Shown: piece after piece, positions 36,201-39,200 of the stretch | Position numbering within the stretch: position 1 is the stretch's first letter | How the letters are laid out: each line of letters starts with the position of its first letter | From: Branchiostoma floridae | Taxonomy: Eukaryota > Chordata > Leptocardii > Amphioxiformes > Branchiostomatidae | Assembly: GCF_000003815.2 (NCBI RefSeq) | Contig: NW_023365734.1 | Location: forward strand, 49,647 to 113,646 | Length of the DNA stretch: 64,000 bases | Direction of reading: 5' to 3' | Position numbers and translations under genes: made by a program | Notes under the pieces: model-generated | What the model saw: the letters and a program-made list of their open reading frames with translations, nothing else | The model's database searches: none | Told to the model about the DNA's origin: nothing

Positions 36201-39200
36201 AAGTGTCTTATTTCTTACTCTATAAAATGACTAATCAAACTGGCCATGTTGAAAATAATGTAAAAAGAGAAGTTTCTTTAGCCCTCTATATGATAGCATG
36301 GCTCTAGACTGTGAGTACGAGTGTCTTTCAATCATTTGACAGAATTTCACTTTGTACAACAGGGAAAATTAAGGACAATTGCATTAACAGACAAATATCT
36401 GCATAAACCACTCTCAAACACTGACCTGGAAATTGGATGATGATAGAATTTTTGCAAATTATGACAAAAAAAATATTTTAGATCAATACGAATTGGGATG
36501 ACGTAAAAATATTCAAGCTGGCCAGAGCAGTATATCAATCTAGATAGCCTACTGTGTAGATATAATTGTAAGTGAATGTAATGTGAGGCACAAACCCATC
36601 AGATGGCCAGTGCCTGTGTGTGGTTCTGTCCAGCCCGGTGTGTGTGCTAGGTTAGTAGCAGGCCATGCTAGATCAGGGGCTAGCTGTGCTAGGTCCTGGT
36701 TTAGTAGCGCTAGATCTGACATCGCTGGCGTGAAATTTAGTCCCATTAAGTCATTAAGTGCACCTGGGCAAGAAAAGTGACAGTACAGGTTAGAGTTGTG
36801 ATAAAAAGTTATGTTTCAATGTTAGTGTGTAAGCTACTGGTGGAATAAAAACCAAAGTAAAAACCACCATGGGGATCCAAGCTTAAGCTGACGTCACAAT
36901 CATACATATTAGACTATATCAAGTTTTGTTCAATAAAGAGCAAACATGTTTTGTTGATTGTGTGCAAGAGTTAGTGTCAGAAGAAGAAAAAAGTATTATG
37001 AAAATTAAGAAACATGCTTAAGAATTTCAACACCAGGAAAAAAGAAGCCGTTATGTAAGACATTGATATAATACGAGATAAGGACACTAAAGCATAGATG
37101 AAGTACTTTGCATGTAGATAAGATTTCAATGACTAATAAAATAATAAATTACAAAATACGAAAGCATATTACTACTGGATTGTAGGCTTTCACAAAGTCT
37201 AATTGTTCCTGACTTACAATGTGATAGATAAACCTTATTAGCATCTACAGAAAATCCCACCATGTTCCTGTCGCTGTTTCTGCAGGTCCAGACGAGAATC
37301 AGCAAAGTTTGTGAACTCCTCATCCAATAAAATCCCAATAAAGACATAAACAAAGTGCCAACTCTTACAAAAAAAACCTGTTTATAGTTTAGAATATGAA
37401 GAAGGATGTGCAGGAAAATCCCACCATGTTCTTGCTGTTGTTTCTGCAGGTCCAGACGAGAGTCAGCAAAGTTCGTAAACTCTTCTAAGAATGACTGTAT
37501 TCTCTTTATAGTTCTTCATTTGTTTGATTTTACTACATGTTCTAACTACATCCTGGATGACTAATCTGCACAAACGGAACAAGAAGGACGCGCAAAAAAA
37601 CTCACTGTGTTCCTGCCGTTGTTTCTGCAGGTCCAGACGAGAGTCAGCGAAGTTTGTGAACTCCTCATCCTCCCCGACTGTCAGCTCATCGATCATGTTC
37701 AGCAGGTCATTTTTACTGACTTACAATGTGATACATAAACCTTATAAACATCTTAAGAAGACTTTACCGTGTTCTTGCTGTCGTTTCTGTAGATCCAGAC
37801 GAGAGTCGGCAAAGTTTGTGAACTCTTCGTCCTCTCCGACTGTCAGCTCATCGATCATGTTCAGCAGGTCATTGTTACTGACTTACAATGCGATACATAA
37901 ACCTTATAAACATCTTAAGAAGACTTTACCGTGTTCTTGCTGTCGTTTCTGCAGGTCCAGACGAGAGTCAGCAAAGTTTGTGAACTCTTCGTCCTCCCCG
38001 ACTGTCAGCTCATCGATCATGTTCAGCAGGAAATTTTTACTGACTTACAACCCGAGAAATAAACCTTATAAACATCTAAAGAAAATCCCACCATGTTCCT
38101 GTCGTTGTTTCTGCAGGTCCAGACGAGAGTCGGCGAAGTTTGTGAACTCTTCGTCCTCTCCGACTGTCAGCTCATCGATCATGTTCAGTAGGTCGTCGTC
38201 GTCTCCGTTCGCCGTGGCGTCCACACCGTTATCCGTCCCGCCCGCACCGTCCGCTTTCCTTTCCTCACCGAACGATATTAGTCTGAGTAGGAATTTCAAT
38301 ACAGGATAATCAATCAATCAATTATCAATTGGTTAATTGGTATGGTGGCCTTGAATAGGTGACCTTGACTTGACAAGGAGCAGGGAATAACATCCAGTAT
38401 TGTAGAAAAGTATAATCAATCAATGAAGCATCAAAATAAGACAACATTTCGTTATATCCTTCACCTATAACCCTCAAACCACCGTATGGGGTCAAAACTG
38501 ACCCCAGGCGTATATCAATGTGTGCCATTACGGCATTTCTGGTCGAAAACAAATTTCCTTCTAGGAGTTTGCTTGTACATATGTCCTATAACTTCTTACA
38601 CGTTTTTATCAAGATTGGCTCATTGTTGATTAAGTTATCCTAGAAAGTTTATGTATGGTCCAGTGGGGTCAAAACTGACCCCAGCCTTTTTTAAACAAAC
38701 TTTTGCGACCCACACCTAAACTACTTATGTTAGGATCACAAAATTTTTTGGGAATGATGTACATGTAAGCCAAAATATTTGTAACACCTTTTGTCCCATT
38801 ATCACGTTATATGACGACATTATGACGTCATATAGGTAATCTCGGCCGCCATCTTGGATTTTGACTGATGAAGTCATCAAATTAGCATAATTTATGAATA
38901 TTGAGTCATGAAATTTACGTTGAATTTCATAAGATGTGATAAACAACTGTTATTTGCTACGAAACCCTTAAAACTTAAATGTTTAATACAAAATTAGAAA
39001 ATTTCGTAATAAATATGTCTATCATAATTCTGTTGCCATGGTAACATGAAAAATGATGAACATACTTTGTTCACTGAAAATGTTTGCTTTCAACATTTTC
39101 TAAAAAGTTACCAAGTTTGGTGGCCCTAGAATAAGCCGTTCAGGCGCTATATGGCATTGAAGCTGGTACAGGCATCAAAAACCTCCTTCCCGGTCCGAAT

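Follow-up and report, generated by a model that had tools for sequence, protein, structure and literature searches.

In amphioxus, tandem duplications at the 5' and 3' boundaries of exons have been described under the name of mirages (PMC3087553). For two globins the units are given as 150-160 and 157 bp, for Adh3 as 10-72 bp, and many of the repeats carry AG/GT signals. According to the same report, RT-PCR on mirages suggests regular splicing; the possibility that the AG/GT signals could serve as cryptic sites is allowed, and the birth of exons or introns from mirage repeats is put forward as a hypothetical model for the globins (PMC3087553, Figure 7). Troponin C has been added as an amphioxus mirage gene, and lancelet PGBD5 is described as having tandem repeats of 60 and 108 bp over splice sites (PMC3902484). 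The Adh3, troponin C and PGBD5 repeats are reported or thought to yield no aberrant mRNA (PMC3902484, PMC3087553).

The locus analysed here lies in a stretch of 64,000 nucleotides of Branchiostoma floridae DNA (the window), in which the end of one exon of ICA1 is repeated in tandem. A sequence-only reading had interpreted this repeat as a set of mutually exclusive exons and knew of no comparable array. In Dscam-type mutually exclusive splicing, tandem homologous exon-like units cannot be joined in series in frame. ICA1 shares with this type both the tandem homologous units and the failure of in-frame series joining, but its copies lack the acceptor of the source exon, encode near-identical protein and have no docking/selector pairing that we could find, and they are known from sequence alone. 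A similar kind of structure had in fact been published, in the amphioxus mirages. Mirages in amphioxus are known; what is new, on our best reading, is ICA1 as a mirage gene. An ICA1 exon array is named in no title or opening of an abstract that we found (supplements and subscription papers lay outside the search).

The ICA1 gene and its exon 10 array

ICA1 (ICA69) occupies about 45,000-33,000 of the window on the minus strand. Four of seven tested exon regions match the Arfaptin domain in Pfam (best E 1.8e-23), two of these four scoring slightly below the curated cut-off, and two of the seven match the ICA69 C-terminal domain; the exon 10 frame matched no Pfam family. The gene model was built manually from splice signals and reading frames and has 12 introns of 338-1775 nt (calculated from the model coordinates). 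Exon 10 keeps the number given to it in the sequence-only reading and makes in-frame junctions with both neighbouring exons; phase decided the choice of two weak donors, that of the exon upstream of it (40058, AAG/gtctga) and that of exon 11.

The anatomy of the array can be observed directly (Table 1). TRF places it at 37607-38194 with a period of 162, 3.6 copies and 90% match, and a repeat finder locates a 72-nt core six times, at spacings of 164, 181, 162, 162 and 162. The proposed repetition of the exon 10 end on a 162-bp period is thus confirmed by both programs. The description as a six-copy array holds for the core; only copies c1-c4 stand at exact 162-bp steps, whereas c5 and c6 are partial and out of this register. 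The proposed length of c2-c4 and their phases, the same as those of exon 10, check out as well. The repeat unit consists of the 3' end of exon 10 and 52 nt of intron, starting inside the exon and ending inside the intron. Because the unit begins within the exon, the copies inherit the donor without the exon's own acceptor. Copies 2-6 all lie in the 1328-nt intron between exon 10 and exon 11 (36763).

Table 1. Features of the ICA1 arrays (window positions) and of the control loci. A slash marks the exon-intron boundary.
Feature	Coordinates	Strand	Description
ICA1 exon 2	44302..44479	-	Source of second array; Arfaptin match slightly below curated cut-off
Mirror-image array at exon 2	44700..44967	-	Two 5'-partial exon 2 copies (A from 44957, B from 44823), period 134; TRF and alignment
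ICA1 exon 10	38092..38282	-	191 nt, phase 2/1; acceptor attcctactcag, donor CATG/gtggga
Copy 1 (c1)	from about 38192	-	3' end of exon 10, part of exon 10
Spacer 1	38040..38091	-	52 nt, intron-derived; in-frame stop; GTAAGT 9 nt before putative acceptor
Copy 2 (c2)	37930..38039	-	110 nt; phase 2/1 with the AG before 38039 as acceptor; 162-bp register
Spacer 2	37878..37929	-	52 nt
Copy 3 (c3)	37768..37877	-	110 nt, phase 2/1
Spacer 3	37716..37767	-	52 nt
Copy 4 (c4)	37606..37715	-	110 nt, phase 2/1; donor ACA/gtgagt
Copy 5 (c5)	37425..37484	-	Partial, 60 nt, phase 1/1 with putative acceptor cattcttag
Copy 6 (c6)	37261..37324	-	Partial, exon 3' end
L011 globin locus	954-1601		158-bp array (TRF)
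L007 globin locus	1642-1921		157-bp 3'-boundary duplicate (self-comparison)
L035 ADH-family locus	564-968, 1154-1477		Repeats over both edges of matched exon; one of four stretches

Spacers 2 and 3 differ at one of 52 positions and spacers 2 and 1 at 10 of 52, and the introns after c4 and c5 have diverged from the remaining ones. Near-identical inner spacers beside a diverged spacer 1 and diverged introns after c4 and c5 are consistent with concerted evolution; in published mirages, likewise, the inner units are alike and the edge units divergent. The best match for the intron after c1 is the intron after c6 (44 of 52 positions identical), as expected if c6 is the old end of the array. The upstream flanks of c5 and c6 have no significant homology to the unit in eight comparisons (lowest p 0.08).

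A second, mirror-image array at ICA1 exon 2

The same gene contains a second array, also directly observed, which derives from exon 2 (Table 1). Its copies keep the acceptor and have no homologous donor, the reverse of the situation at exon 10; such a mirror image is what random duplication of boundaries would give. Over 97 nt there are five variable columns, all at codon position 3 and one of them non-silent; with a further non-silent difference at codon 35 (ATC versus AGC) the total is four silent and two not.

Both ICA1 arrays span an exon-intron boundary and are minisatellite-like, and their units of 134 and 162 bp compare with a reported range of 10-160 bp, 162 being marginally above the top. 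The globin mirages resemble them in the duplication of a 5' or 3' boundary, in the size of the unit and in the AG/GT signals reported for many repeats. Unlike the globin mirages, ICA1 has both boundary types within one gene, its 110-nt copies happen to hold a phase-compatible AG, and copy 5 forms a 1/1 segment. The Adh3 and troponin C mirages and the PGBD5 repeats share with ICA1 the position over splice sites, as far as they are described, and the units given for Adh3 and PGBD5 are shorter than those of ICA1.

Reading frames of the copies

We consider it unlikely that exon 10, c2, c3 and c4 are mutually exclusive exons, one per message, to which c5 may be added; exclusion would be enforced by the frameshift on joining and by 52-nt spacers that would be too short to splice. 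The frame consequences, which are read directly from the sequence, agree with this proposal. Each of c1, c2, c3 and c4 alone, with or without c5, leaves the frame open between the two neighbouring exons, so that all eight predicted combinations are open, and the frameshift proposed for joining two 110-nt copies is borne out in the four joins tested (exon 10 to c2, to c3 and to c4; c2 to c3), all of which stop after five codons. The spacers do measure 52 nt, as had been noted, against 338 nt for the shortest intron of the gene model. Leaving out exon 10, c2, c3 and c4 entirely also breaks the frame. The phase agreement is partly automatic, since the phases of the exon pass to any copy that is entered at the matching codon position. 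Little would be gained by the choice, the peptides being near-identical, beyond the loss of the first part of exon 10.

The breaking of the frame is true for c2-c4, and c5 is exempt: its length and 1/1 phase are as had been proposed for a cassette, and the frame is open with each of c1-c4. A different use of the copies would be serial: c5, and perhaps c2-c4 entered at an internal AG (ctgacag/TC, giving 72 nt and 1/1), would follow exon 10 in the message, and repeats of about 20-24 residues would extend the linker. The entire series is open, phase-1 junctions also occur between downstream ICA1 exons, and the homology of c5 starts at a possible acceptor. The sites themselves are poor, with scores of -0.14 for the internal AG (61st percentile of AGs) and -1.1 for the c5 acceptor (52nd percentile), and c6 has no nearby acceptor in a usable phase; we regard serial addition as quite improbable.

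Reading from the exon 10 acceptor through to a downstream donor, with spacer 1 retained, is ruled out by the in-frame stop.

Splice signals

Splice sites were scored with approximate matrices against a background of the 695 GTs and 822 AGs in 45200-33100. The copies had been said to have both acceptor and donor, and for the donors this stands: all six keep GT, with scores of 5.65-6.66 (93rd-96th percentile of GTs; c2 5.65, c3 5.65, c4 6.66). The putative acceptors of c2, c3 and c4 are weak AGs in duplicated intron, scoring 3.51, 1.6 and 1.3 (72nd-85th percentile of AGs), c3 and c4 falling below the 75th percentile, and each has a competing AG 4 nt further upstream, all of which speaks against mutually exclusive use. 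On the other side, the c2 acceptor is about equal to that of exon 10 itself (3.62, 86th percentile), and those of c3 and c4 are about level with that of exon 2 (1.4); the other 11 acceptors of the model score 5.26-15.47 on the same approximate matrix. As the acceptor of exon 10 reaches only the 86th percentile, weakness alone cannot exclude use of the copies. Docking/selector complementarity, which would have favoured exclusion, does not exceed that of shuffled sequences in 12 spacer-intron pairs compared without gaps (lowest p 0.156).

Two further signals were noticed. Every 52-nt spacer contains GTAAGT (38049, 37887 and 37725, minus strand), donor-like at 6.1-6.5 (94th-95th percentile), which stands 9 nt ahead of the putative acceptor and could act as a decoy donor. 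An acceptor-like site at 37565 (minus strand), in the intron after c4, scores 10.6 and beats the proposed acceptors of the copies; judged by eye, the frames that it opens soon reach stops.

Substitutions among the copies

The claim that changes between copies are mostly silent is correct. Within codons 3-35, 17 of 99 aligned sites vary, 15 at codon position 3, two at position 2 and none at position 1 (p 4.5e-6 against an even spread), and all 17 are transitions. The variable codons comprise 13 silent and two non-silent ones (13/15). Codons 0-2, which are intron-derived in c2-c4, were excluded from this count; two of these codons carry three non-silent changes among c2-c4, a point against mutually exclusive use, and counting them gives 13 versus 4. 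The private changes of c3-c6 are all silent bar at most one.

Codon maximum likelihood gives omega 0.046-0.068 over three topologies, at a difference from neutrality of 30-33 in twice the log likelihood. When the terminal branches of c2-c6 are freed, omega drops to the floor of 0.001, and forcing it to 1 costs 20-24 in twice the log likelihood; these figures are soft, with kappa at its bound, c5 and c6 partial and a tree assumption that gene conversion would violate. IQ-TREE codon fits go in the same direction. The dS among copies is 0.21-1.17 (one pair saturated), clearly above amphioxus polymorphism, which is reported as about 3-5.4% (PMC8994340); the copies are therefore not simply recent allelic variants. 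A simple model of a dead copy and a selected source, for which we estimate about 54% silent changes, fits 13/15 poorly (p 0.009); with codons 0-2 included (13/17) p is 0.050. This strong silent skew and the low omega on the copies' own branches favour mutually exclusive use, and their weight depends on how copies of a similar kind behave elsewhere.

Control loci in the same genome

The assembly searched holds 513,431,437 bases in 431 contigs. Similar arrays are directly observed in it. Globin-domain places number nine, one of which (L011) has a TRF array, and another (L007) has at least one duplicate followed by a run of 100 N that may hide more. In unit length, 158 and 157 bp, and in the side of the exon affected, L011 and L007 fit BflGb6 and BflGb9, and we infer that they are these genes. 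Of the ADH family, 23 places were found and four stretches analysed, with repeats over the edges of the matched exon in one (L035). Further self-matches at globin and ADH places (L003, L006, L010, L036 and L037) fall mostly outside the matched exon ranges. The L011 copies are without the donor of the exon, and the sequence around the AGs in the 62 bases preceding the L007 copy is rich in purines.

At L011 seven variable codons are silent and three are not, taken as a union over copies in which a copy with an indel contributes no codons beyond it; at L007, counted as far as the donor and with the intronic part excluded, nine are silent and three are not. Together with the exon 2 array the controls have 20 of 28 silent, compared with 13/15 for the array at exon 10 (Fisher p 0.45) or 13/17 when codons 0-2 are counted (Fisher p 1.0), and they too show an excess over the dead-copy model (p 0.047). 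The skew is thus common to copies in which a splice site is missing or which are not known as exons, and is no proof of use. The dN/dS between copies, which had been suggested as a check, does give a low omega, but with the same silent skew in control copies it does not establish that any copy is translated.

Exon function on the basis of dN/dS alone was rejected, the globin and exon 2 controls being similarly skewed.

Origin and use of the array

Taking these observations together, the ICA1 array is probably an amphioxus mirage, that is, an intronic minisatellite removed in normal splicing. It would have arisen by tandem duplication of the 3' boundary of exon 10, and slippage or unequal exchange would have made it grow. 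Normal splicing would end the exon at copy 1 (donor after 38092) and join it to the exon at 36763, and copies 2-6 would be excised along with the intron; that splicing ignores the copies we infer by analogy with the published mirages. The silent skew would presumably arise as the translated end of the exon renews the copies time and again, or exchanges sequence with them. Low omega on the copies' branches, the poor fit of the dead-copy model, the high dS and a c2 acceptor nearly on a par with that of exon 10 count against the mirage reading. Mutually exclusive splicing, which had been deduced from the phase rules, is left unsupported by the weak acceptors, the mirror-image array at exon 2, the published mirages, the skew in the globin controls and the lack of docking/selector pairing. 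Recruitment of copies 2-5 as exons, translated in at least some tissue or stage, appears rather unlikely from the sequence.

That alleles or reads were merged into a false tandem is very improbable: although the contig of the window measures 363.6 kb, against more than 34 Mb for C1, C4 and others, and the draft version of one mirage was apparently misassembled (PMC3087553), there is no gap near the array (the window has N runs only at 10190-10289 and 28245-28344), the array and one tested ICA1 exon match this locus only within the assembly, and the introns after c4 and c5 are unlike the others.

With silent copies, ICA1 would stand as a clear example of a mirage gene in which both boundary types occur, and for lancelets phase rules with silent changes would be insufficient as proof of mutual exclusion. 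Should any copy be in use, the array would be a minisatellite in the course of giving rise to an exon or intron. The excess of silent changes over the dead-copy model in mirage-like copies poses a testable puzzle about array turnover; amphioxus mirages may be under coding constraint via unequal exchange through the functional exon position.

Frequency of arrays and an antisense frame

A base rate was taken from 263,582 non-N bases, made up of the window with 20 kb of its flanks and of twenty stretches of 10 kb from contigs C1 and C4. TRF finds 22 arrays in this sample (period at least 20, score at least 150, overlapping rows merged). The period is 110-163 in 10 of them, of which the window holds four, the flanks two and the twenty stretches four; arrays of such a size are not rare in the genome. 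The sampled arrays cluster at about 126-163 bp (9/22), which is near nucleosome size and also covers the published globin mirages.

On the plus strand, an open antisense frame runs over the array at 37512-38309, which we attribute to the 54-codon period. Judged by eye, the third codon positions of this antisense frame fall on those of ICA1; a bias at third positions is thus not enough on its own to separate the strands.
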